From: Bacteroidota bacterium | GTDB taxonomy: Bacteria; Bacteroidota; Bacteroidia; Bacteroidales; VadinHA17 | Assembly: GCA_011049175.1 (NCBI GenBank) | Contig: DSCJ01000126.1 | Coordinates: 1 to 40,964, forward strand | Direction: 5' to 3' | Length of the DNA: 40,964 bases | Shown: piece by piece, positions 16,470 through 38,348 of the stretch | Numbering within the stretch: position 1 is the stretch's first letter | Layout of the letters: each line of letters begins with the position of its first letter | Notes under the pieces: generated by a model | Told to the model about the DNA's origin: nothing | Seen by the model: the letters and a program-made list of their open reading frames with translations, nothing else | Databases searched by the model: none | Program-made: the position numbers and the translations under genes

Positions 16470-17168
16470 ATGAACCATTCCACTGCATACCGGATCCTCC
16501 TGGTAGATGACGAAAAGGATATACTTGAATTCATAGGGTACAACCTGAAAAAGGAGGGGTATGAGGTGTATTCGGCTACCAATGGAAAAGATGCCATCCG
16601 GATGGCCGGTGAAATACTGCCCCACCTGATCCTGCTCGACGTGATGATGCCGGGCATGGACGGGATGGAGACCTGTGAAGAAATGCGAAAAGATGCAAGG
16701 CTGAACCATAGCATCATTGCTTTTCTGACTGCCCGGGGAGAGGATTATTCCCAGATCGCGGGTTTTGAGGCAGGAGGCGACGATTACATTACCAAACCCA
16801 TTAAGCCCAAGGTATTGCTCAGCCGTATCAGGGCTCTGCTGAAGCGGTCAGGACCGGGTCCTGCACACACACCGCCCGGGAAAAAGGTGATTCGTCATAA
16901 AGATATTACCATTGATCAGGAACGGTTCACTGTGATCAAAAAAGGAAAGGAAATTTCCCTGCCCAAAAAAGAATTTGAATTGTTGTCGCTGTTAATGGAA
17001 AAACCCGGCAAGGTATATACCCGCGATGAAATATTTCAGCGGATATGGGGAGAGAAGATCATTGTGGGCGACCGAACCATCGATGTGCACATCAGGAAAC
17101 TCAGGGGCAAGCTGGGCGACCGGCATATCAAAACCGTCAAAGGGGTGGGATATAAGTTTCAGGAATAG
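16470..17168 (+). CDS. PhoB/OmpR-type response regulator (copy 1)
   Basis: The 232-residue regulator has an N-terminal receiver with acidic pocket DDE (13-15), phospho-acceptor Asp57 (LLDVMMPGMDG), Thr87 and Lys109. A C-terminal winged helix of the OmpR/PhoB type begins near 135: KKEFELLSLLMEKPGKVYTRDEIFQRIWG and RTIDVHIRKLRGKLG..IKTVKGVGYKF. It should bind direct repeats as a dimer. The array in its own leader and the adjacent PiT transporter point to phosphate control. No sensor kinase gene is in the window. Copy 2 at 19702 is a close paralog. Confidence 0.93.
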   Translation: MNHSTAYRILLVDDEKDILEFIGYNLKKEGYEVYSATNGKDAIRMAGEILPHLILLDVMMPGMDGMETCEEMRKDARLNHSIIAFLTARGEDYSQIAGFEAGGDDYITKPIKPKVLLSRIRALLKRSGPGPAHTPPGKKVIRHKDITIDQERFTVIKKGKEISLPKKEFELLSLLMEKPGKVYTRDEIFQRIWGEKIIVGDRTIDVHIRKLRGKLGDRHIKTVKGVGYKFQE

Positions 17169-17239
17169 CTCTTACTTCTGATCAGTTCCTTTCCGGTTTT
17201 TCCCCGCGGAATCATTTTCACTTAGCGTACCGGTGTGTT

Positions 17240-19510
17240 TCAGGGAGCCAGAACGCCGTTTTCCCGGGAATAGATCACAAAATCACGCTGGGCTTTCAGA
17301 ATATTCAGGGTGTAAAGCATCAGGTTCTTGGTCTCGGCCAGCACATTGAAATACAACAGGCTGGTTTTGGTCCCGGCTTCGCCTTTCTTGATCCTTTTCA
17401 CCTGTTTCTTGTTCATTTTGGCGATAATATCCAGGATGTGTTTCTGCTTTTCGATGATTTCCGACAGATCATCGAATTTACCCTGTTTCAGGTGATTCAG
17501 CACAAAGTTGAAGAAAACGGATATCTCCTCGTTCAGGAAAATGAACTCCTGTTTCTGGTCTTCATTGAAGGGTGCGTGGTTGTTTTCCATATGTTCATGA
17601 ATATGCTCCATGATGAAATTCACGCAGTGAGCACCTTCCCTGATGTAATCGAGCACCTGAACGTAGAAGGGCCCGCTTTCCACGGAATCTTCCTCCAGTT
17701 GCCGGATTGTGATGTATATATTGTTTTTCAGTTCTTTGCTGTGCTGGTTCAGTTCCTTGATCTCATTCCGCACTTTTTTCAGTCCGCGCCTGTCTTGCCT
17801 GAAAAAGTTCTCCAACGTGAGATAATACAGTTTCGACATGGAGATGACCGTGCTGGTAACGTTTTTGTTGCACTCGCTGAGCACGGTATCGGCCTTCACA
17901 ATCTTACGTCCGTACAGGGCTTCCTGCTTCAGTTTCATATCGGCTTCCCGGCGCTTGTGGATCACGTGGGTGCGGAAAATGAAGAAACCGGTGAGCACGA
18001 TCAGCACCAGAATGGAAACGAACCCTCCGTAATAGATGATAAAACCCATAACCAGGGAAATGGTGAATGCGATCAGTGCAGTAACAAACCAGCCTCCGAT
18101 CACCGTAAGTACGCCCGAAATCCGGTACACCGCACTTTCCCTGCCCCAGGCTCTGTCTGACATGGAACTTCCCATTGCTACCATAAAAGTGACATAGGTT
18201 GTGGAAAGGGGTAGCTTAAGGGAAGTGGCAAACGAAATAATGATGCTGGCTACCACCAGGTTTACCGAGGCCCGCACCAGGTCGAAATAGGCGGTATCCC
18301 TGGTGGTTGAATTCTTTGATTTGTATTCGGTCTGGTCAAAGCGTTTTTCCAGTTTTTCTTCCAGGCTTTGAGGCATCAGGGTGCGAAATCCTTTTGACAG
18401 GTTCATGCTGGCTCTTACCAGGAAACGGGAAAAAGCATTGGGTTGAAAACGTTCGTATCCCTCATCCTGCCGTCCCAGGCTGATCTCCGTTTCGGTAACC
18501 GAACGGGCTTTGCGCGACAACCACAGGGTAACGGCCATGATGATCCCTGCCAGGAGCAGAAAATAAGTGGGGGTTTGAACCGGGCCGTTCAGGGCATCCA
18601 TGGTGAATACTTCGGGATTCACCCCTTCCGCCATGAAATTCCGGAAAGAAGCGAACCCGGCCAGGGGAACCCCTATAAAGTTCACCAGGTCATTCCCCGC
18701 AAAGGCCATGGCCAGGGCAAACGTACCTACCAGCACCACCACCCGCAGTATGTTGACTTTGATCAGCCACATCAGCAATTGCAAAAGCAGGGTCCATCCC
18801 AGGAAACTGGTCACCAGGATCAGCATGGTGTGATCCATGATCCAGGTCAGTGTGGCATCGGTTATGAAGGCGGATCCTTTGGCTCCCTTGATCAGCATGA
18901 AATAGGTAATAGCTGTGATCGCAACTCCTCCCCAGATGGCTCCGAAATATTTCATCTGTTTTTCGAAATTGAAGGTAAATGCGATCCGAACCAGGTACTG
19001 AACCAGCGCTCCCAGTGTAAAGGCAATCACAATGGAAAGCAGGATCCCCGATATAATGAACAGAGCCCCCCCCGAATTGATGTACTCGCTTACCCCGGTT
19101 CCCAGTTCAGGATTCTGGCTCGTTTTGATGATGGCCAGGGCTACGGCGGCGCCGAGCAATTCGAATACAATGGATACGGTTGTGGAAGTGGGAAGCCCGA
19201 AGGTATTGAACAGGTCAAGCAGTATAACGTCGGTCAGCATCACCGCCAGGAACAACACCATAATCTCGGAAAAGGTAAACATGTCGGGATGAAAGATCCC
19301 TTTCCTGGCCACTTCCATCATGCCGCTGGAAAAAGTAGCCCCGATCAGGATCCCAAGGGAAGCAATCAGCATGATCACTTTAAAGGGAGCGGCTTTGGAG
19401 CCGATGGCCGAATTCAGGAAATTGACGGCATCGTTGCTTACTCCAACGATCAGGTCGGAAATTGCCACTCCGAACAGCACAATAACAATGAACAAATACA
19501 GGTTTTCCAT
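17240..19510 (-). CDS. PiT-family phosphate transporter with PhoU-like tail
   Basis: This 756-residue inner-membrane protein imports phosphate (or metal-phosphate) with cations. Both PiT repeats are visible: GVSNDAVNFLNSAIGSKA with FGLPTSTTVSIVFELLGA near the N-terminus, and FAGNDLVNFIGVPLAGFAS with LKLPLSTTYVTFMVAMGSSMSDRAWGRES further on. About 12 membrane helices are expected. From about residue 555 the chain becomes soluble and helical, like the PhoU/DUF47 proteins that usually are separate subunits. I start at MENLYLF (19510), since a -7 box at 19540 falls inside the longer frame to 19573. It sits between two PhoB-like genes and behind a Pho-box-like array. Confidence 0.92.
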   Translation of the reverse strand: MENLYLFIVIVLFGVAISDLIVGVSNDAVNFLNSAIGSKAAPFKVIMLIASLGILIGATFSSGMMEVARKGIFHPDMFTFSEIMVLFLAVMLTDVILLDLFNTFGLPTSTTVSIVFELLGAAVALAIIKTSQNPELGTGVSEYINSGGALFIISGILLSIVIAFTLGALVQYLVRIAFTFNFEKQMKYFGAIWGGVAITAITYFMLIKGAKGSAFITDATLTWIMDHTMLILVTSFLGWTLLLQLLMWLIKVNILRVVVLVGTFALAMAFAGNDLVNFIGVPLAGFASFRNFMAEGVNPEVFTMDALNGPVQTPTYFLLLAGIIMAVTLWLSRKARSVTETEISLGRQDEGYERFQPNAFSRFLVRASMNLSKGFRTLMPQSLEEKLEKRFDQTEYKSKNSTTRDTAYFDLVRASVNLVVASIIISFATSLKLPLSTTYVTFMVAMGSSMSDRAWGRESAVYRISGVLTVIGGWFVTALIAFTISLVMGFIIYYGGFVSILVLIVLTGFFIFRTHVIHKRREADMKLKQEALYGRKIVKADTVLSECNKNVTSTVISMSKLYYLTLENFFRQDRRGLKKVRNEIKELNQHSKELKNNIYITIRQLEEDSVESGPFYVQVLDYIREGAHCVNFIMEHIHEHMENNHAPFNEDQKQEFIFLNEEISVFFNFVLNHLKQGKFDDLSEIIEKQKHILDIIAKMNKKQVKRIKKGEAGTKTSLLYFNVLAETKNLMLYTLNILKAQRDFVIYSRENGVLAP

Positions 19511-19539
19511 GGTATGCGGTTGGTTCCGGTAATCAGAAG

Positions 19540-19547
19540 CAAAGGTA
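19540..19547 (-). promoter_or_regulatory. -7 box (TACCTTTG) for the phosphate transporter
   Basis: On the minus strand the bases are TACCTTTG, an exact TAnnTTTG match, 29 bases before the ATG at 19510. The Pho-like array ends 31 bp upstream of it, next to where the -33 box would be. Confidence 0.5.
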
Positions 19548-19578
19548 ATGGCAGGAATTTTTTTTCCATCCATTCGAA

Positions 19579-19606
19579 TATTAATTTTTTCTTAACTTAT
19601 TGTAAA
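19579..19606 (-). promoter_or_regulatory. PhoP/PhoB-box-like array for the phosphate transporter
   Basis: Read on the minus strand, TTTACA (19601-19606), TTAAGA (19590-19595) and TTAATA (19579-19584) follow each other with exactly 5-base spacers, so an 11-bp period. It has the same orientation and nearly the same distance to the -7 box as the array before the regulator at 16470. Matches to TTAACA weaken toward the gene. Confidence 0.5.
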
Positions 19607-19670
19607 GCTGAAGCGATTGAAAATCATAATATTATAAAGTAAGATTAACATGGGCTAACGTATTTATTTC

Positions 19671-19678
19671 TATTTTTG
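19671..19678 (+). promoter_or_regulatory. -7 box (TATTTTTG) for the second PhoB-like gene
   Basis: It is identical to the -7 box of copy 1 and lies 23 bases before ATG 19702. A lone TTAACA at 19645-19650 sits near the -33 position; no full 11-bp array is seen on this strand. Confidence 0.45.
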
Positions 19679-19701
19679 ACCTGTCTGTGAAAAACAAATG
19701 C

Positions 19702-20397
19702 ATGGCTGAAAATAAAATCCTGATTGTTGACGATGAAAAGGATATTCTGGAGTTTCTGGGGTACAACCTGAGAAAGGAAGGATACAAGGTATATGCTGCC
19801 TCCGATGGAATGGGAGCCATTGAAACCGCCAGGCGGATAACCCCCGACCTGATTGTTCTGGATGTAATGATGCCCCGGATGGACGGAATAGAAACCTGTG
19901 AAAAAATGAGGGAAATTCCCGGGCTGAAGCAGAGCATGATCGTTTTTCTCACAGCCCGTTCGGAAGATTATTCGCAGATTGCTGGCTTTGCAGCCGGAGG
20001 CGACGATTACATTGCCAAACCAATACGTCCCAGGGTATTCATTTCCCGGGTGAAAGCCCTTCTGCGCAGGGCGCAGTACGTACAGGGCGAAAATGTTCAG
20101 CAGCAGACGGATCATGTAATCGATACCGGACAGCTGCTGATTGACAGGGAAAAATATGTTGTATATTTTGAAGGGAAAGAATTCTATCTTCCGAAAAAGG
20201 AATTCGACCTGCTTGTGTTGCTTACTTCCAGTCCTTCCAGGGTATTTACCCGCGATGAAATATTCAACCGCATCTGGGGAGACGATGTGTTCGTGGGCGA
20301 CCGAACCATCGACGTGTATGTGAGGAAACTAAGGGAAAAGTTCGGTCAGAACACTATTCGTACAATCAAAGGGGTGGGCTACTGTTATGAGGCGTGA
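19702..20397 (+). CDS. PhoB/OmpR-type response regulator (copy 2)
   Basis: The 231-residue protein is collinear with and very similar to copy 1. The receiver has DDE at 10-12 and Asp54 (LDVMMPRMDG), with a shared EDYSQIAGF.AGGDDYI.KPI.P stretch. The winged helix contains KKEFDLLVLLTSSPSRVFTRDEIFNRIWG and RTIDVYVRKLREKFG. The two likely arose by duplication. It probably controls the same phosphate genes or reads a different signal at overlapping sites. I prefer ATG 19702 over the GTG at 19687. It is convergent with, and 2 bp from, the single-domain REC gene. Confidence 0.92.
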   Translation: MAENKILIVDDEKDILEFLGYNLRKEGYKVYAASDGMGAIETARRITPDLIVLDVMMPRMDGIETCEKMREIPGLKQSMIVFLTARSEDYSQIAGFAAGGDDYIAKPIRPRVFISRVKALLRRAQYVQGENVQQQTDHVIDTGQLLIDREKYVVYFEGKEFYLPKKEFDLLVLLTSSPSRVFTRDEIFNRIWGDDVFVGDRTIDVYVRKLREKFGQNTIRTIKGVGYCYEA

Positions 20398-20399
20398 GC

Positions 20400-20768
20400 T
20401 CAGAGAACGGACTTGATTTTTTTTATGACCTGGGTTACATCGATGGGCTTCTCAAAATAATCCACTGCACCCAGTTTCTGCGCTTTCTCTTTATAATTTT
20501 CGTTTCCAACCGCCGTGATCATGATCACGGGAAGATCTGCCAGTTTCGGCTCCTGCCTGATCTTTTCGAGTAATTCCAGCCCGTTTGTCTGAGGCATCAA
20601 TATGTCCAGCAGGATAAGGTCGGGTTTGTCCTTCTCCAGGTATGCCAGCGCCTCCCTGGCGCTGGAAGCCGTTATTACCTCGTATCCCTCTTTCTGCAGA
20701 ACCACATCAAGCAGTACCACATTGGTGTTGGAATCGTCTATAACCAGAATTTTTGCTCCTTTCGCCAT
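20400..20768 (-). CDS. Single-domain response regulator (CheY-like)
   Basis: The 122-residue protein is a receiver domain only. The acidic pair is DD at 11-12, phospho-acceptor Asp55 is in LILLDILMPQTNG, Thr85 is in IMITAVG, and Lys107 is in YFEKPI. With no output domain, it must act by binding a partner or as a phosphate shuttle in a relay. The longer frame to 20855 is intergenic translation, and a -7 box lies inside it, so I start at MAKGAK. It is divergent from the Crp/Fnr gene and convergent with PhoB copy 2. The Hpt protein at 28978 is a possible partner only by inference. Confidence 0.9.
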   Translation of the reverse strand: MAKGAKILVIDDSNTNVVLLDVVLQKEGYEVITASSAREALAYLEKDKPDLILLDILMPQTNGLELLEKIRQEPKLADLPVIMITAVGNENYKEKAQKLGAVDYFEKPIDVTQVIKKIKSVL

Positions 20769-26677: not shown

Positions 26678-27499
26678 ATGAACTATATGAAAGGTGTCTT
26701 TTTTAAAGGAGCCTTGCTTGTCCTGTTTTCCGGAATACTCTGGCAATGCAGCACGGTACCCTTTACGGGAAGGAAACAGGTGAATTTACTGCCCGAGTCG
26801 GAAATGGTTTCCATGGGGATAAGTAATTACCGGGCATTTCTTGATACCACTCCGGTGGTAACCCGTGGGACCGAACAGGCACTGGTGAAAAAGGTGGGTG
26901 GAAAAATCGCCGCTGCTGTTGAAAACTTTTTTCAGGATAACCAACAAAACGACCGTTTGCAGTATTTTGACTGGGAGTTTCAACTGGTAGAGGATGAAGT
27001 GCCCAACGCCTGGTGTATGCCCGGTGGGAAAGTGGTTTTTTACACCGGTATCCTTCCGTATTGCAGGGACGAAGAAGGCATGGCGGTGGTAATGGGCCAT
27101 GAGATAGCACATGCCGTGGCCAGGCATGGGAACGAACGGATGAGCCAGGCTTTGCTGGTACAGATGGGGGGCATTGCCCTGTCGGTAGCCATCGATCAGA
27201 AACCCGAAGAAACCAAACAATGGTTTATGGCCGCTTACGGCATTACAAGCTCACTGGGCGTGATATTGCCTTATTCACGTGCTCACGAAACCGAAGCCGA
27301 TCAACTGGGACTGATCTTTATGACCATGGCAGGCTACCATCCGGAGTCGGCCATTGATTTCTGGGAAAGACTGGCTGCTGCCGGGGGCCGGAAACCTCCG
27401 GAATTTCTGAGTACCCATCCGTCCGATGAAAAAAGGATCAGGGATATGAAGGCTTTTCTGCCCAAAGCAAGGAAATACCAACCTGTTCATTCCGAATGA
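26678..27499 (+). CDS. M48-family metalloprotease lipoprotein
   Basis: The 273-residue zinc protease has HEIAH at 141-145 (VVMGHEIAHAVARHG) and the third zinc ligand Glu204 in HETEADQLG, all intact. The signal ends in LWQC with Cys24 as lipid anchor, followed by the family opening TVPFTGRKQVNLLPESEM. A C-terminal FLSTHPSDEKRI motif is also typical. It resembles E. coli LoiP/YcaL and BepA, which act in outer-membrane protein quality control, but it lacks the TPR tail of BepA. An in-frame ATG at 26687 is an equally good start. It follows ggt by 97 bp with its own promoter box. Confidence 0.93.
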   Translation: MNYMKGVFFKGALLVLFSGILWQCSTVPFTGRKQVNLLPESEMVSMGISNYRAFLDTTPVVTRGTEQALVKKVGGKIAAAVENFFQDNQQNDRLQYFDWEFQLVEDEVPNAWCMPGGKVVFYTGILPYCRDEEGMAVVMGHEIAHAVARHGNERMSQALLVQMGGIALSVAIDQKPEETKQWFMAAYGITSSLGVILPYSRAHETEADQLGLIFMTMAGYHPESAIDFWERLAAAGGRKPPEFLSTHPSDEKRIRDMKAFLPKARKYQPVHSE

Positions 27500-27709: not shown

Positions 27710-28873
27710 ATGAAAAGATCGGTTGTCATTCTGATTGTTATCCTGGTGATCCTTCTGATCCTCCCTGCCTATAGTTTTTTTAAATGGGCGTTCCAGCCAA
27801 AGAAACCGCTTAATGTGCTGGTTATTGACAAAACAGTACCGGATCTGGAAAAAGAGGAACATCGTTCATTTTTCTGGATACTGAATCAAAACCGGTTCGT
27901 CAATAAAGAATCCAACAACGGGTATAGCTTCAGGAAAGATTATTTCGGCTTTATACCCCAGAAGCCGCTGCGAAATAAAATGTATGATATTGCCCGGGTT
28001 AGACTATCGGAGATCATCAACCTGGCGGAACAAAATGACGTGATTTATGTAACCGATACCTATGGGGTGTATTTCAATGACTGGTACCGCGGGATAAACC
28101 GCAGCCGGCGGTCGCGTATGATCTACGGTGGCCTGAACAACAGCGATTACCTGTTGCTGAAAGAGATGCACGACAGGAACAAGCTGGTGATTGCCGAATA
28201 CAATACCCTGGGACACCCCACGCCACCACTGGAAAGAAACAAGTTGGAAGACCTGCTGGATGTCAACTGGTCGGAATGGTCGGGAAAATATTTTTTCAGC
28301 CTCGATACCATCAAAAACCCGGATTTTCCCAAATGGATACTGGAGCTGTACCGAGAACAATACCACAAAAGCTGGGATTTTACACGCTCAGGCATTGTCT
28401 TTGTAAAAAACGACGACCGGGTGGTAGTGCTCGAGAACCAGACCCACCTCGATTTCGATGCTCCCTATATCATCACACCGCATGAATACATGGAAAAATA
28501 TGAACTGCCCTATAAAATTGCCTATTCCCACTGGTTTGAGATCATAGAGACCGATGACAACGATGTGGTTAGCTGGTTCAGGATCTATCCCAACGAACTG
28601 GGCGATTCCATTATGGTAGCCAACATCATTCCTGATGTATTCCCGGCTGTGGTGAAAGGACCCGGAGAGCAGAATTACTATTATTTTGCAGCCGATTTTG
28701 CCCAGAATCCCATCGGGATGTTCTCTGCCCGTTTCAACGGATTTGAAAAGCTGAATTTTATCAATATCCGTACTGATTACAAATCCACACACAACTTTTT
28801 CTGGAAATACTACAATCCCCTGATGCGTAATATTCTGGAAGAGTACTGGGAGAAAACCTATTCCGGAGAATGA
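27710..28873 (+). CDS. Membrane-anchored protein of unknown function
   Basis: The 387-residue protein has one N-terminal membrane helix (about 4-24, VVILIVILVILLILPAYSFF) preceded by Lys-Arg. The large C-terminal part should therefore be periplasmic. The first folded stretch (LNVLVIDKTVPD, then DVIYVTDTYGVYFNDWY and LVIAEYNTLGHPTPP) alternates hydrophobic strands and helices like a GATase/Rossmann-like or carbohydrate-active fold. The second half is beta-rich with many aromatic residues. I recognise no family. A terminator 33 bp after its stop separates it from the Hpt operon, but it is the same-strand neighbour and might serve the same surface glycan. Confidence 0.75.
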   Translation: MKRSVVILIVILVILLILPAYSFFKWAFQPKKPLNVLVIDKTVPDLEKEEHRSFFWILNQNRFVNKESNNGYSFRKDYFGFIPQKPLRNKMYDIARVRLSEIINLAEQNDVIYVTDTYGVYFNDWYRGINRSRRSRMIYGGLNNSDYLLLKEMHDRNKLVIAEYNTLGHPTPPLERNKLEDLLDVNWSEWSGKYFFSLDTIKNPDFPKWILELYREQYHKSWDFTRSGIVFVKNDDRVVVLENQTHLDFDAPYIITPHEYMEKYELPYKIAYSHWFEIIETDDNDVVSWFRIYPNELGDSIMVANIIPDVFPAVVKGPGEQNYYYFAADFAQNPIGMFSARFNGFEKLNFINIRTDYKSTHNFFWKYYNPLMRNILEEYWEKTYSGE

Positions 28874-28906
28874 ATGTAGGGTGTGGTTCAATCTGATCAT
28901 TCACGG

Positions 28907-28937
28907 ATCCATTTTATATCGTTAAAATGGATTTTTC
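28907..28937 (+). terminator. Rho-independent terminator
   Basis: ATCCATTTTA (28907-28916) and TAAAATGGAT (28923-28932) pair perfectly around TATCGT and are followed by TTTTC. It ends the gene at 27710 and leaves the following Hpt operon to its own promoter, for which I see no consensus box. Confidence 0.75.
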
Positions 28938-28977
28938 TTATATGAAAACAGGCTGGTTTTTAGTATAGTATTATTTT

Positions 28978-29346
28978 ATGTCTTTGCCCAGAAAATCAAG
29001 AAAAGGTTATTATGATCTGAAATATGTATTGCAGGTTGCCGGAACCGATGAAGGGTTTGTACTGGAAATGGTGAAATATTTTGTTCAGAATACGCCGGTG
29101 GTTCTGCAGCGATTGAAAAAATACTGCCGGGAAGAAAACTGGAACGACCTGGCTGCCGAAGCACACAAATTTGCACCGGGCCTGAGCTTTCTGGGCATAA
29201 CAGTCCTGGAAGAAAAGATCAGGCGGGTGGAAGATTGTGCCACGGAAGGGGCACGGCATGAATCCCTTCCCCGGCTGGTGGAAGAGATCGATAAAACGGG
29301 AAACGAAGTGGTAAACGTGCTAAAGCAGGATTTTTCTCTGGAATGA
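28978..29346 (+). CDS. Hpt phosphotransfer protein
   Basis: The 122-residue, all-helical protein matches the histidine phosphotransfer domain. FVLEMVKYFVQNTPVVLQRLKKYC is followed by WNDLAAEAHKFAPGLSFLG. His63 is the expected phospho-acceptor, but the usual HxLKGSS context is replaced by HKFAPGLS. It is first in a five-gene operon and overlaps the receiver gene by 4 bp (ATGA), so the two are made together. It should carry a phosphoryl group from a hybrid kinase encoded elsewhere to that receiver, or drain it. No kinase lies in the window. Confidence 0.82.
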   Translation: MSLPRKSRKGYYDLKYVLQVAGTDEGFVLEMVKYFVQNTPVVLQRLKKYCREENWNDLAAEAHKFAPGLSFLGITVLEEKIRRVEDCATEGARHESLPRLVEEIDKTGNEVVNVLKQDFSLE

Positions 29347-29720
29347 ATAAACCTGTCAACATACTGATCTGTGAGGATGATTACCTCACCCTCAAAGCTC
29401 TGGAACATACCCTGAAGCATGCAGGGTATTCCATTATGCTGGCCAAAGACGGGAAAGAAGCCAGAGAACTGCTCAGCCGGGGGAATATCCAGGTATTGCT
29501 TACGGATATTCATGTGCCCTATTTCAGCGGCCTGGAACTGATCCGGTATGTGAGGGAAGAACTCAACAGCCCGATCCCTGTCCTGGTTCTTTCCCGTGTG
29601 GGACTGGAAGACACCATCATGCATGCATTCGAACTGGGCGCCAATGATTACATTACCAAACCCTTCAATCCCGGCGATCTTTTGCTGCGCCTGAAGAAGA
29701 TGATGTCACAGGAAAAATGA
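29343..29720 (+). CDS. Single-domain response regulator, partner of Hpt
   Basis: The 125-residue receiver has acidic EDD at 11-13, phospho-acceptor Asp55 (LLTDIHVPYFSG), Ser84 in the Thr/Ser position and Lys106 (YITKPF). There is no DNA-binding or enzymatic output domain. It overlaps Hpt by 4 bp at the start and the YaiO gene by 4 bp (ATGA) at the end. Such tight coupling suggests it acts on the protein machine encoded downstream, for example on the cytoplasmic HEAT domain or the glycosyltransferase, rather than on DNA. That target is inference. Confidence 0.9.
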   Translation: MNKPVNILICEDDYLTLKALEHTLKHAGYSIMLAKDGKEARELLSRGNIQVLLTDIHVPYFSGLELIRYVREELNSPIPVLVLSRVGLEDTIMHAFELGANDYITKPFNPGDLLLRLKKMMSQEK

Positions 29721-30985
29721 GATGGAATCCAGCTAACATTCTCCTGCCGTTTTTACTGACCGTTGCCTTTTCCCCGGGGGAAGTAAAGGCCGGCCGGTTT
29801 ACACACGGCGATCCCGACAGCCTGTTCTTCCTGGCCAGAGAGCTCGCTTTTCAGGGGGAATACAGCCTTTCCAGGGATTGCTGCTACCGGCTGATCGACA
29901 GCTTCCCCGGCTATACCGATGCCTATATCCTGGCCGGCAATACCTGGGCCTGGGAAGAGAAATTCGATTCGGCCCGTTACTGGATAAAGGAAGCGCTTCG
30001 TATTGATCCCGGCCGCACCGATGCCATTGAGGCCCTTGCCCGGGTGGAATACTGGGCGGGGGCTCCCGGCGAAGCGCTGCCGGCCATTGAGAAAGGCCTG
30101 GAAATCCATCCCCGGCGCCCCGATCTCCTGTATCAGAAAGCTCTGGTGTATTTCCGTGAAGGGAAACGGAAAGAGACCCGGACGGTTCTGAATGCCCTGG
30201 CCGATACGGTACCGCAATATCCCGGCGCTGACAGCCTGTACCGGCTGGCACGTGCAGTGGTTTTCCCCTCGTCTTTTACGGCCGAATACTATTATGATCA
30301 TTTCAGCCGGCCATACGTGAGGAACTGGCATATTCTCTCCCTGGCAGTGGACGGGGAGACAGGCAACAGCCGGTTCACCCTGAAGCTGAACAACGGCTAC
30401 CTGGCACGAAGGGAGGAAAATTTCGGGGAGAATACGGAAAAGCAGCTGGAACTGGATGCCTATCCATCCCTGGGAAAGAAAAGCTACCTGTATCTCAACG
30501 CGGGAATTTCACCCGGGAAGTTTTTCCCCCGTTACCGGGCAGGTGGGGAATGGTTTTACACCATTCCGCACGATATGGTAGTTTCGGCAGGCTTTCGGTA
30601 CCTGAAGTGGGCCGACGGTTTTCTGTTCTATACAGGATCGCTCGAAAAGTATGCCGGCAATTACTGGCTGGCCCTGCGTCCCTATGTGTTTCACAAACCC
30701 TACGGCTGGTCGTCGGCCTGGTTTCTCACAGCCCGCCGCTACCTGGGCAATGAGGAACAGTACCTCCAGGTAATGGCCGGAACCGGAACTTCACCCGATG
30801 AACCCATGCTGGCATCATCCGACCTGGACAGGCTCCGTACCGCGGTATTCCGGGCAGGCGGCCAGTGCCGGCTGGCAGGGAACTGGAGGATACATCTCCT
30901 GGCAGGCTATTCAAGGGAAGAATTTACCGACGGGGAAAAACGAAACCGGTACGACCTGAGGCTGGGGTTGAGATATCATTTTTAG
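29717..30985 (+). CDS. TPR plus YaiO-type outer-membrane beta-barrel protein
   Basis: The 422-residue protein begins with a signal peptide (ILLPFLLTVAFSPGEVKAG). About four TPR units follow at 30-175 (DSLFFLARELAFQGEYSLSR, DAYILAGNTWAWEEKFDSAR, DAIEALARVEYWAGAPGEAL, DLLYQKALVYFREGKRKETR). From about 190 it alternates aromatic-rich beta strands and ends LRLGLRYHF, as in the YaiO outer-membrane barrel family. TPR plus barrel is the layout of the exporters PgaA and BcsC, only smaller. In this operon it is best read as the outer-membrane part of a glycan export system. The start overlaps the receiver gene, and the stop overlaps a strong SD for the next gene. Confidence 0.88.
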   Translation: MRWNPANILLPFLLTVAFSPGEVKAGRFTHGDPDSLFFLARELAFQGEYSLSRDCCYRLIDSFPGYTDAYILAGNTWAWEEKFDSARYWIKEALRIDPGRTDAIEALARVEYWAGAPGEALPAIEKGLEIHPRRPDLLYQKALVYFREGKRKETRTVLNALADTVPQYPGADSLYRLARAVVFPSSFTAEYYYDHFSRPYVRNWHILSLAVDGETGNSRFTLKLNNGYLARREENFGENTEKQLELDAYPSLGKKSYLYLNAGISPGKFFPRYRAGGEWFYTIPHDMVVSAGFRYLKWADGFLFYTGSLEKYAGNYWLALRPYVFHKPYGWSSAWFLTARRYLGNEEQYLQVMAGTGTSPDEPMLASSDLDRLRTAVFRAGGQCRLAGNWRIHLLAGYSREEFTDGEKRNRYDLRLGLRYHF

Positions 30986-30989
30986 GAGG
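30984..30989 (+). promoter_or_regulatory. Unusually strong Shine-Dalgarno (AGGAGG)
   Basis: AGGAGG overlaps the TAG stop of the YaiO gene and lies 9 bases before the ATG at 30999. Perfect SD sequences are rare in Bacteroidota, so it stands out and suggests coupled or boosted translation of the SPOR/HEAT protein. Confidence 0.6.
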
Positions 30990-30998
30990 TTTTACAGC

Positions 30999-32594
30999 AT
31001 GAGGAAACAGGTTGTCGCCATATTGTTCCTGATCCTTTTTCAGGGATATTCCCTTCCGGAAAGGGAACCACAGGTAGCTGACACCCTGCTTACTTCCGGT
31101 CATCCCGTTTTCCTGGTCCGGATCTCTTCCCGGAAGGAAAAATTGCCGGCAGGTTTTGTGGCCCGGCATTTTGGCCTGGACCGGCCTGTTTTTACCGAGT
31201 TTCGCGACCGGCACTACCGGTATTATACAGGCCCCTTTCCCGGCCTCGAAGAAGCCGAAGCATTTATCGATTCCCTGGGCGTTGACGATGCCTTTGCAGT
31301 GGTTTTCCTGAGAGGAACCCGGGTGACCCGCTCGGGAAGACCCATCCCGGGAATGACCCGGGGAACGTGGATCTATCCGCCCGACAGTACCGCACCGGCT
31401 CCGGATACTGTCATTTCCGTTGTGGAAGAGGAACCGGCGGCCGCCGATACGGTGGCGGCTGAGACCCTGCCATCCCGTCCCGCACCGGAAGGAAACCGGC
31501 TCAGAAAGTTCATTGCCAAACGCGATTACGGCCGTTCCACCCTGTTTGTGCTGATCCTGTACGGGGTGATTATCTATTCCATCTTTACCATGATGATCCT
31601 GCTGGTGGTGATCCTGATCAACCGGAACCGGAACGAGCGGCTGGCCAGGATAGAAGAAGACCTGAAGGAAAAATACCAGCGGGTGCTGATGAATTACCTG
31701 TTCGATCAGGAACTACCGGAAGGAGTGCCACTGCGGCTGCAGAAAATCGCTTCCAATTCATTCAAACGTAAAATCCTGATCGACCAGATGATCGACCTGA
31801 GTGTGAACCTGAGGGGAGAAGCCGCCGAAAAATTGCGCGACCTGTACATTCGCACCGAATTGCACCACGATTCGATCAGGAAAGCCAGGAGCCGCCGCTG
31901 GCATATCAAAGTCAAAGGCTTCAGGGAACTGGCTTTTATGGATATCCGCGACGCCAACGATGAGATCATCCGCTGCCTGCACTCCCGGAACGATATCCTC
32001 CGGATGGAGGCACAGCTGGCGCTGGTGAAGCTGGGCGACGAACATCCCTACGAATTCCTGGATTACCTGAAAATGCCTTTTTCCGTGTGGGAACAGATGA
32101 CCGTGCATGAGATGCTGATCCACCATGAACTCAATCCTCCGCCTTTCAGCCGCTGGCTTCGTTCATCCAACACCTCGATCGTGATCTTTTCACTGAAAAT
32201 GATCGCCATTTTCAAACAGGAAGATGCCTACCCCCTGATCATCGAGCTGCTCGACCACACCGACCCCGAGGTGAGGAAAACAGCCATCCGTGTGCTGGGG
32301 GATGTGAAATACCGGGAAGCCATTCTTCCCCTGAAACGAATGTACAAACAGGAACCCTATGAAAATTGCCTGGAAATTATTAAAGCCATGGGCAAGATGC
32401 CCGATCAGATGGTGCTGAAGTTCCTTCAGCTGGTGATCGACCGGGAAGACGACGTTCAGCTTCAGATCGAGGCCGCCAAGGCTATTCACCAGATGGGACC
32501 GGTGGGTGAGGATACCCTGGAAAAAATGATGCATTCCGATTACAAGAATTACCAGATCATTATCAAACACGTGCTGGACAAACGCATTTTCTGA
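30999..32594 (+). CDS. SPOR-like / transmembrane / HEAT-repeat protein
   Basis: The 531-residue protein has four parts. A signal peptide is at 1-18. A SPOR-like domain lies at about 36-106 (HPVFLVRISS, then YRYYTGPFPGLEEAEAFIDSLG and AFAVVFLRG). A Pro/acidic linker runs to 165. A single membrane helix at 181-207 is followed by NRNRNERLAR (positive, cytoplasmic), a helical region and HEAT repeats at about 300-531 (for example HTDPEVRKTAIRVLGDVKYREAILPL). It should span from peptidoglycan to cytoplasm. The upstream phosphorelay and the GT2 gene, which starts inside its stop codon (TGATG), suggest that it scaffolds or gates the synthase. The SPOR assignment is by pattern, not by search. Confidence 0.82.
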   Translation: MRKQVVAILFLILFQGYSLPEREPQVADTLLTSGHPVFLVRISSRKEKLPAGFVARHFGLDRPVFTEFRDRHYRYYTGPFPGLEEAEAFIDSLGVDDAFAVVFLRGTRVTRSGRPIPGMTRGTWIYPPDSTAPAPDTVISVVEEEPAAADTVAAETLPSRPAPEGNRLRKFIAKRDYGRSTLFVLILYGVIIYSIFTMMILLVVILINRNRNERLARIEEDLKEKYQRVLMNYLFDQELPEGVPLRLQKIASNSFKRKILIDQMIDLSVNLRGEAAEKLRDLYIRTELHHDSIRKARSRRWHIKVKGFRELAFMDIRDANDEIIRCLHSRNDILRMEAQLALVKLGDEHPYEFLDYLKMPFSVWEQMTVHEMLIHHELNPPPFSRWLRSSNTSIVIFSLKMIAIFKQEDAYPLIIELLDHTDPEVRKTAIRVLGDVKYREAILPLKRMYKQEPYENCLEIIKAMGKMPDQMVLKFLQLVIDREDDVQLQIEAAKAIHQMGPVGEDTLEKMMHSDYKNYQIIIKHVLDKRIF

Positions 32595-34027
32595 TGGAGA
32601 AATGGATCGACATACTGGAATTCATACTGTACAACTTCATCTTTGTCCTTACGGTCATTATATTCTCCGCCTATGTGATCCTGGCCGTGTTTTCAGCGGT
32701 GATGCTAACCCGCTACCTGCGAAAGAACAGCTATGTGGATTACAACTCCATCATCCTGGCCCCGTTGATCCCCACCATTTCAGTCATTGCCCCGGCCTAC
32801 AACGAAAGCAAATCCATTGTGGCCAATATCAGGGCCCTGCTTTCGCTCTATTATAACGATTTCGAAGTGATCGTGGTGAACGACGGAAGCAAGGACGATA
32901 CACTGGAAAAGATCATCGATGCCTATGATCTGGAACGGGTGAATTATTTCTTCGATTACCGGATTCCCTGCAAAAGGATCCGGGGAGTGTACAAATCCAG
33001 AAACCGTTCTTTCAAAAAACTTACGGTCATTGATAAGGTGAACGGGGGCAAGGCCGATTCCCTGAATGCCGGCATCAACGTATCGAAAAACAAGCTGGTG
33101 GTCAGTATCGATGCCGATTCGATCATGGAACCCGATGCCCTGCTGAAAATGGTTAAACCCTTTCTGGAGGAAAAAGGCAAAAAAGTGATCGGTACCGGCG
33201 GGGTGCTCCGCATTGCCAATTCATGTGAGATCGAGGGCGGACTGGTACGCCGGGTACACCTTCCCGGTAATTTCCTGGCCCGGGTGCAGGTGCTGGAGTA
33301 CACCCGCGCTTTCCTGATGGGAAGGATGGCCTGGGCCAGGCTCGACGGGTTGCTGCTGATATCGGGCGCCCTGGGGATGTTCGACAGGGAAGTCATGATC
33401 CGTGCCGGAGGATATAGTACCGAAACGGTGGGCGAAGACATGGAACTGGTGGTACGGATGCGCCGGCTGATGGCCGAGGAAAAAGTACCCTATGAAGTGA
33501 CCTATATACCCGATCCCCTGTGCTGGACCGAAGTGCCCGAAAGAATGCGCATTCTGGGCCGGCAACGGAACCGCTGGACCAGGGGCACCGCAGAAACCCT
33601 GTGGCTGCACCGGAAGATATTCCTGAATCCCCGGTACGGCAAGTTCGGTATGCTGGGATATACCTACTGGTTTTTCTTCGAATGGCTGGCTCCCCTGGTG
33701 GAGTTCTTCGGGCTGATCTATTTCGGTATACTGGCCGTGCTGGGGCATATCAACTGGTCGTTCTTCCTCCTCCTGCTGGGGTTTGTCTATACCTTTGCGG
33801 TTTCTCTTTCCATCTGGGCCGTGCTGTTCGAGGAAATGACCTTCCATAAATACGAAAAAAAACGCGATGTGTTCAAGCTGATCGGCACGGCTTTCCTGGA
33901 ACCTTTCTTTTACCACCCGCTCACCGTTCTCTGGGCTGTGAAGGGCAATTACGACTTCTTTATCGGTAAAAAAAGCTGGGGGAAGATGGAACGGACCGGT
34001 TTTGAAAAACCGAAAAATACTGTCTGA
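32594..34027 (+). CDS. Processive GT2 glycosyltransferase (PgaC/BcsA-like core)
   Basis: The 477-residue inner-membrane enzyme has an N-terminal helix (about 13-40), then a GT-A domain with PAYNESKSIVANIRALLSL, Asp97 (VVNDGSKDD), DAD at 173-175, acceptor motif GED at 280-282 and QRNRW at 324-328. Three or four C-terminal helices follow. D, DxD, ED and QxxRW together mark processive synthases that make and translocate beta-linked polysaccharide from a nucleotide sugar. There is no PilZ domain for c-di-GMP. The sugar is unknown; poly-GlcNAc-like is possible. The gene overlaps the HEAT gene by one base, and a nitrilase gene follows 12 bp later. Confidence 0.93.
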   Translation: MEKWIDILEFILYNFIFVLTVIIFSAYVILAVFSAVMLTRYLRKNSYVDYNSIILAPLIPTISVIAPAYNESKSIVANIRALLSLYYNDFEVIVVNDGSKDDTLEKIIDAYDLERVNYFFDYRIPCKRIRGVYKSRNRSFKKLTVIDKVNGGKADSLNAGINVSKNKLVVSIDADSIMEPDALLKMVKPFLEEKGKKVIGTGGVLRIANSCEIEGGLVRRVHLPGNFLARVQVLEYTRAFLMGRMAWARLDGLLLISGALGMFDREVMIRAGGYSTETVGEDMELVVRMRRLMAEEKVPYEVTYIPDPLCWTEVPERMRILGRQRNRWTRGTAETLWLHRKIFLNPRYGKFGMLGYTYWFFFEWLAPLVEFFGLIYFGILAVLGHINWSFFLLLLGFVYTFAVSLSIWAVLFEEMTFHKYEKKRDVFKLIGTAFLEPFFYHPLTVLWAVKGNYDFFIGKKSWGKMERTGFEKPKNTV

Positions 34028-35066: not shown

Positions 35067-36554
35067 TTATTCCGGTATGCCTGCCATAAAATCATGGATA
35101 CGTTCCGCCGCCAATTTGGAACTGATAACCGCCATAGGCAAACCAGCTCCCGGAATGGTGGAAGCCCCAACATAAAAAACATTCCTGAATTTTTCGTCAT
35201 AATTTTTCGGGCGGAAGGCTCCTATTTGCCCCATGGTGTGCGATAATCCCAGTCCGGACCCCAGATACAGGTTAAACGCTCTTTCCCAGTCTTCGGGAGT
35301 GTATTCCATCTGACAAACAATATTTTCCGAAATATCTTCATGAATTCTTTCTGAAAAATCATCCAGAATACTCCGGATGATTTCCTGTTTATCAGACCAA
35401 TCCGGTTTATATTTTAAATTCGGTACAGGACAAACAAAAAACAAAGCTTCATGTCCTTCCGGGGCACAACCGGGATTGTGTTTTGAAAGAATATTGACAT
35501 AATAATAGGGTTTTTCCAGGGTGCCCGGATTTTTCATTACGTCTTGCGCATATTCTTCGTAATTATTGCCCAGAAAATAATTATGGTGCTCCAAATGGGG
35601 CAGCTTTTTATTGATCCCTACATAAAAGGTTAAATAGCCCATGGTCCAGCTCATTTTATTCAATCTTCCGGGAGAGAATTTTTTCCGCCTGAACACACTC
35701 CCCCTGAAAAATGCGGCATCGGCATTGATCACAAAAATATCCGACTTCCAGTCTTTGCCATGCTGGTCGGTTAATGACACCAGTTCACCCTTGTGGCTCT
35801 GGTAACCCACAATTTCCGTTTCGTAATGGAACGATACATCGAATTTTGATAATGCGTCAATCAGGCTGGTTACAATGGTGTACATTCCCCCTTTCACATT
35901 GTAATACCCGGTGTGAGTAAACTCAATATGCGAAAGCAAAGTGTATATCGCATTCGTATCAAAAGGGGTCCTGCCCAGAAAGAAGGCAATTAACGATACG
36001 ATCTGCCTGGCTTCTTTCGAATCAAAATAGGTGCTCACCTGTTTCCAGAAGCTCTTGAACAACACCGGAACGTGTTTAGGATTTACCTGCATTAAGGCTT
36101 GAAAATAAGCTGGAATACTGTTGAAATTTTGCTTTATCACAATATCCACTGTATCGTTATACAACTGTTCGCACTTTTTTAAATAAGCCGTGAACTTTTT
36201 TTTAAAATCCGGCTCAATTCCTTCAAACTGCCTGCTCAGTTTACCGATATCTTTATACAGAGAAAATTTTTTGTTACTTCCCCTGAAGTGAACGGTATAC
36301 AGCGGGTCGAGCTCAACAAACTCAAAAGGCATTTTCAGGCCGCAATCATTCACAAGTTCTACAAATTCATAGGGCATGCTAAAAAAGCTTGGGCCAATAT
36401 CAAAAGTAAACCCATCTTTTTTCAGCTGATTTAACCGCCCGCCCGGCTGCCTGTTTTTCTCAACAAATGTTACCCGGTACCCCCGGGAGGCCAGTCGTAA
36501 ACCGGCAGATAGTCCGCCTAATCCGGTTCCAACGATTATTACATGTTTATTCAT
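35067..36554 (-). CDS. crtI: Phytoene desaturase (CrtI/CrtN family)
   Basis: The 495-residue flavoprotein has the N-terminal dinucleotide-binding motif VGTGLGGLSAGLRLASRG (9-26), then EKNRQPGGR and the family stretch FTFDIGPSFFSMPYEF. Near the C-terminus it has VFYVGASTIPGAGLPMAVISSKLAAERI, the FAD-closing signature of CrtI-type desaturases. It should introduce the double bonds that turn colourless phytoene into coloured lycopene-type carotenoid. It is the last gene of the minus-strand carotenoid operon and overlaps the TPR gene by 8 bp. A desaturase of other carotenoid intermediates, such as CrtD, is the alternative; only one such gene is in the window. Confidence 0.9.
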   Translation of the reverse strand: MNKHVIIVGTGLGGLSAGLRLASRGYRVTFVEKNRQPGGRLNQLKKDGFTFDIGPSFFSMPYEFVELVNDCGLKMPFEFVELDPLYTVHFRGSNKKFSLYKDIGKLSRQFEGIEPDFKKKFTAYLKKCEQLYNDTVDIVIKQNFNSIPAYFQALMQVNPKHVPVLFKSFWKQVSTYFDSKEARQIVSLIAFFLGRTPFDTNAIYTLLSHIEFTHTGYYNVKGGMYTIVTSLIDALSKFDVSFHYETEIVGYQSHKGELVSLTDQHGKDWKSDIFVINADAAFFRGSVFRRKKFSPGRLNKMSWTMGYLTFYVGINKKLPHLEHHNYFLGNNYEEYAQDVMKNPGTLEKPYYYVNILSKHNPGCAPEGHEALFFVCPVPNLKYKPDWSDKQEIIRSILDDFSERIHEDISENIVCQMEYTPEDWERAFNLYLGSGLGLSHTMGQIGAFRPKNYDEKFRNVFYVGASTIPGAGLPMAVISSKLAAERIHDFMAGIPE

Positions 36555-37284
36555 CGTTTAATTTTTTTAATACCTGTGGATAAAGCTGATATCTGACCCA
36601 ATGGAAACGGGGTTCTGCAGAAAGTGTCTTTTCGCAATAGTACTTCGCTGTTAGATAATCTTCCATCTCCATACTGGCATGAATGATGGTGGCAAAAAGA
36701 TTAAGATAATTCCAGTTATGAACTGTTTCACCGGGTCGGCTTTCCATGAGCTTCAATGCATGTAAATAATGCTGCATGGCTTCTGTTTTCGATCCTCCGA
36801 ATATTCTGGGAGTAAAATAGGCAATATTGCCAAGCTGAATATGTCCCAGTGCATTTGACGGATCGGATTTTACCGCTTGCTTGGCATATTTAATACTTTC
36901 CGAACCGATAAAGGGAGCTTTTTGAGGGGATAATCCTATTTTATATCCGATAAAAGCGGCTTTGTATGCAAGCAACATGGATTCCTGATACTTCTGTTTC
37001 TGAAGATACCCGATCTGTTCTTCCGCTTTTTCCATATAGCGTTCGGCTTCCTTTTTTTTGTCACGATCTATGCACCAGGCAACGTAGCCATATTGATAAT
37101 TGATCAGGTCAAGCTTATCTTTATTCGTTTTACGCTGTACAGCATCAAGGGAATCCATCGCGCTTTTCCATGCAACCATGTCGCCGTTGATGTATGCGTG
37201 ATAGATTGTTATATGGCTTTGCCCCACCGAAGGAACCAGCAGAATACCGAAAAAAACTATGAGTAGATATTTCTTTCTTTCCAT
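36547..37284 (-). CDS. Secreted TPR-like protein in the carotenoid operon
   Basis: The 245-residue protein starts with a signal peptide (KKYLLIVFFGILLVPSVGQS). The rest is helical with TPR-like pairs (IKYAKQAVKSDPSNALGHIQLGNIAYF, TEAMQHYLHALKLMES, TAKYYCEKTLSAEPRF). It should lie in the periplasm. No enzymatic motif is seen. It overlaps the GT2 gene upstream by 28 bp and crtI downstream by 8 bp, so it is firmly part of the operon. It may help place or transport the finished carotenoid, or it may be unrelated to it. I know of no characterised carotenoid gene of this kind. Confidence 0.78.
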   Translation of the reverse strand: MERKKYLLIVFFGILLVPSVGQSHITIYHAYINGDMVAWKSAMDSLDAVQRKTNKDKLDLINYQYGYVAWCIDRDKKKEAERYMEKAEEQIGYLQKQKYQESMLLAYKAAFIGYKIGLSPQKAPFIGSESIKYAKQAVKSDPSNALGHIQLGNIAYFTPRIFGGSKTEAMQHYLHALKLMESRPGETVHNWNYLNLFATIIHASMEMEDYLTAKYYCEKTLSAEPRFHWVRYQLYPQVLKKLNDE

Positions 37285-38348
37285 GAATATTTTTTTTGTG
37301 TTTTAACCAGAAGGGCATTCACCATGATCTGTAAAAGAAAGATCAAATGAAAAGGGAACAACAGGGTATTCCGAAGGGCATTTTGCCTCGAGGTAAAAGA
37401 ATAGAGAAACTGAACTGAAATGATGCCCAGTATGTAATACAGGAAGGTTTCCCGCAGGGTGATGAGCACAGGAATAAAACCCTGCGCAGCTAACACCCAG
37501 AATAAAAAAGCCAGAACGGGGCTGTTCCCGAAAAACATGAACACGTTTTTGGAAAAACCATGGAATGATTCTCGATAGGATCGGTACATCCTGCATTGTA
37601 TTCTTTTCTCCCCTGTTAAACAAGCGATTTTGATCTTTTGTTCTTTCAGAAAGCGGGCAATGGAAATATCTTCCACAAAGGAACTTTTAAACAGCCTGTG
37701 GGGTTGCATTGTGTCATACGTGGCGGCATGAAACAACATGAACTGGCCGTTTGCTGCAGCATGTGATTTAAACGGCGAGATCCTCACAAAGATCAGAGGG
37801 AGGAGGGTTAGCAGAATGTAATGCATGACCGGCACAGAAAGCTTCTCTCCCGGGGTTCTTTGTATTTGTGTGGGGAAAATGGAAAGCAATCCCAAACGGT
37901 GCTTCTTCATAAATGCAACGGCATCCGCAATCATTCCTCCCTCGATCCTTACATCGGCATCAATGAACAGGTAGTATTTGCCGGTTGCCATTTGAGCCAG
38001 TTGATAACAGGCATGATTTTTACCCAACCAGCCCCGGGGCAGGCCCTGTGATTGCATCAGCCGGATCCTTTTATCCCGCCCTGAGAAATCCCTGACAACG
38101 TTTACCGTATGATCGGTCGACTGGTCATCAAAAACAAGGATCTCCAGATGCCGGTTGGGATATTTTTGAAGGTCGGAAAGCAAATAGCCAATATTCTCTT
38201 CCTCATTGCGGGCCGGGATTAATACTGAAATTACCTCTTCCTTTTCTGCTTCTGAAGAGGTGAGTTTTTGTCTGAAAACAAAGTTTATGAATACATTGAT
38301 GAACTGCATACCCAGGAAACACAATGATATATAGGCTGCATACAGCAT
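37257..38348 (-). CDS. GT2 glycosyltransferase, probable carotenoid glycosyltransferase
   Basis: The 363-residue membrane-bound GT2 has an N-terminal helix, then VLIPARNEEENIGYLLSDL, FDDQSTDHT, the motif GWLGKNHACYQLA, DADVRIE as DxD, and FVEDISIARFLK. Hydrophobic helices follow at about 275-350. LGKNHA plus this topology fits the CrtQ/CruC/HpnB-like branch, which glycosylates hydrophobic lipids such as carotenoids or hopanoids. With CruF-like and acyltransferase neighbours it should glycosylate a hydroxy-carotenoid in the inner membrane. Its start overlaps the stop of the acyltransferase gene by one base. Confidence 0.85.
   Translation of the reverse strand: MLYAAYISLCFLGMQFINVFINFVFRQKLTSSEAEKEEVISVLIPARNEEENIGYLLSDLQKYPNRHLEILVFDDQSTDHTVNVVRDFSGRDKRIRLMQSQGLPRGWLGKNHACYQLAQMATGKYYLFIDADVRIEGGMIADAVAFMKKHRLGLLSIFPTQIQRTPGEKLSVPVMHYILLTLLPLIFVRISPFKSHAAANGQFMLFHAATYDTMQPHRLFKSSFVEDISIARFLKEQKIKIACLTGEKRIQCRMYRSYRESFHGFSKNVFMFFGNSPVLAFLFWVLAAQGFIPVLITLRETFLYYILGIISVQFLYSFTSRQNALRNTLLFPFHLIFLLQIMVNALLVKTQKKYSWKERNIYS

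Follow-up and report, generated by a model that had tools for sequence, protein, structure and literature searches.

The window analyzed here is a 40,964-nucleotide stretch of DNA from a Bacteroidota bacterium (contig DSCJ01000126.1, assembly GCA_011049175.1). A block of five genes in it, at positions 28978-34027 and all on the + strand, encodes what we take, with fair though limited confidence, to be a synthase-dependent exopolysaccharide machine, controlled not by cyclic di-GMP (c-di-GMP) but by a receiver that acts via a membrane HEAT protein. The five open reading frames (ORF), which lie where a preliminary description of this DNA had placed them, encode a standalone histidine phosphotransfer protein (Hpt; 28978..29346; 122 amino acids (aa)), a single-domain receiver without output domain (REC; 29343..29720; 125 aa), a protein with a signal peptide, a TPR part and a barrel (TPR-YaiO; 29717..30985; 422 aa), a protein with a SPOR-like ectodomain, one transmembrane (TM) segment and a HEAT domain (30999..32594; 531 aa) and a GT2 membrane synthase (32594..34027; 477 aa). 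All five family calls are above the curated Pfam cut-offs: Hpt with 31.1 bits (cut-off 24.6) and its AHK motif kept, Response_reg with 86.7 bits (30.2), YaiO (PF19413) with 144 bits (23.9) together with TPR, HEAT_2 with 62.5 bits (27.7) and GT2 with 80.1 bits (27). The tight coupling claimed in the preliminary description was confirmed at every junction. As read from the sequence, ATGA links Hpt to REC at 29343 and REC to YaiO at 29717, a Shine-Dalgarno motif overlapping the YaiO stop codon (TAGGAGG) stands ahead of the ATG of the HEAT gene at 30999, and TGATG at 32592-32596 links HEAT to GT2.

Conservation of the gene set

The same description had proposed that these genes form one machine, so we ran a synteny check on two samples chosen independently. 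The first was a scan of genome contigs with GT2 peptides, which yielded 77 loci in Bacteroidales, Cytophagales, Chitinophagales, Flavobacteriales and Sphingobacteriales, with four of the 77 coming from Halanaerobium. Because GT2 peptides alone were used, the neighbouring genes in this sample are unselected. Synteny was counted in the 46 loci, including the window, that have at least 4.5 kb on each side. HEAT is immediately upstream of GT2 in 44 of these, YaiO lies no more than six genes from GT2 in 45, and a standalone receiver (<150 aa) is present in at least 41. The true number is probably higher, since the simple ORF caller made some receivers too long, that of the window among them. Standalone REC ORFs make up 53 of 511 genes lying within four genes of GT2, compared with 1 of 132 genes more than six genes away.

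For the second sample, 296 Bacteroidota genomes, drawn evenly, were searched for the HEAT family. Among the best 30 loci, GT2 is directly downstream of HEAT in 28, the other two ending at the edge of the locus; REC immediately precedes HEAT in 18, and the order of the window itself (REC-YaiO-HEAT-GT2) recurs in 5 further loci. Since the GT2-picked and HEAT-picked samples agree, the gene set is more than a chance neighbourhood, and the lack of synteny that would have spoken against the proposal of one machine was not found. By its prevalence across genomes it is an accessory trait, with a HEAT match above 80 bits in ∼42 of the 296 Bacteroidota genomes and a strong match in 9 of 35 other genomes from the family to which the window belongs.

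The version found in Halanaerobium, which belongs to another phylum, is ordered YaiO, REC, HEAT, GT2, REC-GGDEF, standalone Hpt and finally a hybrid kinase that contains PAS and receiver domains. Its GT2 is 41-46% identical, and its HEAT protein is matched by a profile built without that protein (E 9e-12).

The GT2 synthase and the predicted exporter

The GT2 displays the motifs D97, DAD (173-175), ED (281-282) and QRNRW (324-328), in line with the processive-type D, DxD, ED and QxxRW signature that had been reported, and 37 homologues keep the catalytic Asp/Glu and the Q..RW residues without variation. With TM segments after the catalytic part, the protein, encoded by a single-copy gene in this genome, has the features of an inner-membrane processive-type synthase and would be expected to act processively. 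Its best NCBIfam match is PgaC_IcaA (TIGR03937), with 133.4 bits against an equivalog cut-off of 422.3. As assessed by blastp against E. coli synthases, PgaC is the closest (27% identity, E 1.7e-27), followed by YaiP (E 2e-11), and NfrB is not significant (E 0.74). A GT2 profile searched against solved structures returned just generic GT2 and cellulose synthase matches. In a tree, the family is clearly separate from PgaC and YaiP; the PgaC/YaiP outgroup branches are too long, which leaves the tree in effect unrooted, and it was used for family coherence alone.

TPR-YaiO scores well above threshold in both family models, with 127.1 bits for TIGR04390 (cut-off 32) besides the PF19413 match given above. 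Its structure model (predicted local distance difference test (pLDDT) 89) consists of a signal peptide, a TPR solenoid and a 14-strand barrel. The best match in the PDB is E. coli BcsC (9b8a, E 2.4e-10), with PelB of PelBC also high. These modelling results suggest that YaiO is probably a compact TPR-barrel exporter forming the outer-membrane exit that the preliminary description had assigned to it. The description had also presented YaiO as a departure from PgaA and BcsC. Because the model resembles BcsC, it is less unlike these proteins than was held and follows their TPR-barrel plan in a more compact form. An M48 (BepA-like) metalloprotease is encoded ahead of the cluster at 26678-27499, as it is in loci L026, L028, L030, L032 and L034, and may be connected with the assembly of the YaiO barrel in the outer membrane.

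Phosphorelay proteins and the membrane HEAT protein

The phospho-acceptor residues of both Hpt and receiver are present, and in the receiver of the window the Asp/Ser/Lys site is intact. Among 60 standalone receivers the phosphorylation site is kept almost without exception (Asp54 in 59, Lys and Ser/Thr in all 60). These proteins also share a stretch, D..MP[YF].SGLE (DIHVPYFSGLE in the window), which is found in 45 of the 60 but in only 7 of 36 other receiver domains of the loci, where MPxMDG is the usual form. This shared MP[YF]xSGLE stretch points to a dedicated partner of the standalone receiver. As assessed by profile searches, Hpt domains occur in 44 loci, either alone as in the window or within larger kinases, often at the ends of hybrid kinases, beside the receiver. 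The window genome encodes two Hpt proteins. In relatives, hybrid kinases ending in REC-Hpt are encoded next to the receiver. The built-in phosphorelay of the preliminary description stands for the Hpt and the receiver, but is incomplete in the window, with no kinase next to the genes. The arrangement resembles known phosphorelays of hybrid kinase, Hpt and single-domain receiver, but here the receiver without output domain is associated with the gene cluster of a polysaccharide synthase. Three more receiver-domain ORFs (frames of 244, 255 and 154 aa) lie at 16491-20765 of the window.

No GGDEF and no PilZ domain was found in the window genome, which is 98.1% complete. This makes control by c-di-GMP very unlikely here, in keeping with the signalling without c-di-GMP that had been claimed, and the host seems unable to synthesize this messenger.

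The HEAT protein has a single hydrophobic segment (∼189-207), with the HEAT repeats C-terminal to it. With a signal peptide in front, this topology would probably place SPOR in the periplasm and HEAT in the cytosol. Of the SPOR-TM-HEAT architecture described for it, TM and HEAT hold, but SPOR is below the Pfam cut-off in the window (14.1 bits vs 21) and clear in two relatives (32.2 bits in L039 and 32.9 bits in L097). Across homologues the ectodomain is SPOR, LysM (L041) or absent, and the constant part is one TM segment plus HEAT repeats. SPOR and LysM in general bind peptidoglycan, and the ectodomain is for this reason better called an anchor than a bridge. The earlier term "envelope bridge" was therefore an overstatement, the ectodomain being confined to some members and HEAT being probably cytosolic. 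We propose that the HEAT protein is an adaptor between receiver and synthase, or a co-polymerase. Natural REC-HEAT fusions, sought as direct evidence of interaction, were not seen among the loci. In loci L110, L111, L113 and L114, HEAT homologues are ∼690-860 aa long, with a long additional C-terminal part.

Comparison with known systems

As described in PMC7112194, synthase-dependent systems combine a synthase with a c-di-GMP module, with enzymes that modify the polymer and with a TPR-coupled pore. The gene set has a processive-type GT2 synthase and, by model prediction, a TPR-coupled outer-membrane pore. In place of a c-di-GMP-binding domain or co-polymerase it has REC and HEAT, the genome being without PilZ and GGDEF. 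As for periplasmic modifying enzymes, relatives have sulfatase-fold, deacetylase and CotH proteins, and the candidate in the window is a GATase-like protein.

With the Bcs system (BcsA/BcsC), the gene set shares processive GT2 motifs and a TPR and outer-membrane barrel exporter. It differs in having neither PilZ nor BcsB, but a separate receiver and HEAT membrane protein, and an exporter whose TPR part is short and whose barrel is predicted to have 14 strands. The Pga/Ica systems are similar in that the GT2 is nearest to PgaC, the exit is a TPR-barrel (PgaA) and a deacetylase is present in relatives (L058 and L097). However, the window is without PgaD and PgaB, and HEAT and receiver stand where Pga has PgaD and c-di-GMP. 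Membership of Pga was rejected, since the PgaC and PgaA equivalog scores are far below their cut-offs (for PgaA, TIGR03939, 20.3 bits vs 366.65) and GGDEF and PilZ are missing. Membership of Bcs and Nfr was rejected on family and blastp scores and on the absence of GGDEF and PilZ from the genome. NfrB and NfrA, which make the NGR glycan of E. coli, are likewise a GT2 and an outer-membrane protein encoded in one operon, with post-translational control of output (PMC8669469, PMC8669472), but NfrB has an MshEN c-di-GMP domain (residues 414-745) for which the GT2 of the window, ending at residue 477, has no room. The E. coli yaiS-yaiP-yaiX-yaiO genes also place a YaiO-family barrel beside a GT2 and a putative deacetylase, and YaiP is similar to the GT2 of the window; they include no HEAT, receiver or Hpt, and their YaiO, at 257 aa, hence has no TPR part.

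By these sequence comparisons, the system resembles synthase-dependent exopolysaccharide machines yet belongs neither to Pga nor to Bcs or Nfr. The Ica system of staphylococci works without c-di-GMP as well (PMC7112194), so independence of c-di-GMP is by itself not new. The new aspect is the pairing of a receiver and a HEAT protein with a synthase. We found no publication on YaiO with GT2 and HEAT or on receiver-controlled synthases, in a search from which most subscription journals were excluded.

Proposed mechanism and alternatives

Computation established which genes are present and how they are conserved, that the catalytic and phosphorylation residues are kept, that GGDEF and PilZ are absent, and which fold YaiO is predicted to have. 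From this we infer the processivity of the GT2, its polymer, the contact between receiver and HEAT, the sign of the control and every functional arrow of the following scheme. The GT2 would polymerize a UDP-sugar at the cytosolic face and carry the chain across the inner membrane within its own TM segments. In the periplasm the chain would be guided by the TPR part of YaiO, and the 14-strand barrel would release it. A hybrid kinase encoded elsewhere in the genome would pass phosphate to Hpt and from there to the lone receiver. We further infer that phosphorylated REC acts on the HEAT and GT2 proteins; it would bind the membrane-anchored HEAT protein, and HEAT would then open or close the GT2. 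The REC/HEAT pair would in this way stand in for the c-di-GMP-binding PilZ, PgaD or MshEN modules of Bcs, Pga and Nfr, and the SPOR-like ectodomain and the GATase-like neighbour would be lineage-specific periplasmic helpers.

Several observations weigh against this scheme. No histidine kinase is encoded beside the five genes in the window, and Hpt was not found in ∼33 of the 77 loci, including the close relatives L026-L034; a search for weaker Hpt matches, run on ten loci from close relatives, found none. Receiver and HEAT are not always encoded together: in Chitinophagaceae, the receiver goes with YaiO and the accessory gene described below. HEAT is poorly conserved, with a mean column identity of 26% compared with 64% for GT2. 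The barrels of BcsC and PgaA have 16 strands, and a 14-strand barrel is narrower, so that passage of a polysaccharide through it is no more than plausible. The Halanaerobium cluster has its REC-GGDEF gene (L091:9371-10372) beside Hpt and hybrid kinase, and c-di-GMP may there join the phosphorelay in control.

The main alternative, which we regard as unlikely but serious, is that the exopolysaccharide machine is the same but that Hpt and receiver leave the synthase untouched. They would be a diffusible relay, or a sink for phosphate, in another process such as transcription or motility, and be co-encoded for coordination. Single-domain receivers often act as shuttles, and the lack of an output domain and of Hpt in many loci would suit such a role. 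However, the receiver is directly before HEAT-GT2 or YaiO in distant taxa including Halanaerobium, and its special sequence signature is mostly absent from other receivers of the loci. Less probable still is a GT2 whose product is a short or lipid-linked glycan, or which attaches sugar to a surface component, with YaiO being no exit pore. The barrel of YaiO is smaller than those of BcsC and PgaA, and E. coli YaiP, YaiO and YaiS are annotated only as putative. Against this stand the invariant processive motifs including QxxRW, the TM segments after the catalytic part, PgaC/IcaA as best NCBIfam match, the BcsC-like TPR-barrel fold of YaiO and the modifying enzymes in relatives. An ordinary Pga- or Bcs-type system with an overlooked c-di-GMP input, which might be suggested by PgaC being the E. 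coli synthase that the GT2 resembles most of those compared, is scarcely credible and, barring GGDEF genes in the ∼2% of the genome that is missing, is refuted here, with PgaC_IcaA at 133 bits vs 422, a cluster without PgaB, PgaD and BcsB, and a genome without GGDEF and PilZ.

Accessory gene, modifying enzymes and flanking regions

The five genes of the preliminary description are all present, but a sixth recurring gene, upstream on the same strand (U387; 27710..28873; 387 aa), had been missed. Between it and the Hpt operon there is a terminator-like hairpin (28905..28938, + strand) with a 12-bp stem and a U-rich (T in the DNA) tail. It was not picked up by a scan based on G+C and was found by folding energy (-11.7 kcal/mol) and z score (-4.45). 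The transcript of the accessory gene therefore probably ends there, apart from the Hpt operon. Homologues, 33-39% identical across Bacteroidota, occur in 19 loci and are tied to YaiO/REC/HEAT-GT2 clusters. In Chitinophagaceae, U387-YaiO-REC are on the strand opposite HEAT-GT2.

The accessory protein has no match in Pfam and only a chance-level one in NCBIfam. Its model (pLDDT 81.8) displays an N-terminal membrane anchor and a domain resembling class-I GATase, ThuA and the middle domain of GH42 (structural matches to GATase1, GH42 and ThuA with Z 12-14). Matches also include OST, the N-terminal domain of IFT52 and the carbohydrate deacetylase Agd3. The protein is probably periplasmic and membrane-anchored, as judged from the model, no conserved Cys was found in an alignment of homologues, and it is a candidate new family. 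A relationship with the deacetylase-like proteins of relatives found no support (hhalign probability 0.1).

In relatives, the clusters encode enzymes of a kind that belongs to known synthase-dependent systems (PMC7112194). In Chitinophagaceae and kin, a sulfatase-superfamily domain is fused to GT2 in a membrane protein of ∼1190 aa (L059:7950-11528, L061, L065, L070 and others). Elsewhere this LTA-synthase-like domain is fused to TPR (L043:9435-11867, 810 aa) or stands alone behind membrane segments. These domains would presumably modify the polymer in the manner of LTA synthase or BcsG. A polysaccharide deacetylase is above the cut-off in L097 and just below it in L058, and CotH kinase-like proteins are encoded between YaiO and HEAT in L041:4781-6205 and L064:5476-6828.

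Downstream on the - strand (35067-38348), inspection of the sequence indicates a phytoene-desaturase-like oxidoreductase, a TPR-like protein and a second, shorter GT2. This region resembles carotenoid/glycoside metabolism and is probably outside the five-gene system.

Implications

In Gram-negative bacteria, c-di-GMP is what turns on the best-studied synthase-dependent exopolysaccharides. Here, a host apparently without c-di-GMP synthesis retains a complete-looking synthase and exporter. In the broadest form of our proposal, which we consider evenly poised, a widespread class of synthases in Bacteroidota and Halanaerobiales is gated directly and post-translationally by a phosphorylated single-domain receiver via a membrane HEAT adaptor, free of c-di-GMP. 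If true, the receiver-HEAT switch would reveal the way in which bacteria of this kind control biofilm polymers. The output of a two-component system would then be an enzyme complex and not a promoter, which could be tested in culturable strains such as Flavobacterium flevense, Ohtaekwangia koreensis or Chitinophaga rhizosphaerae.

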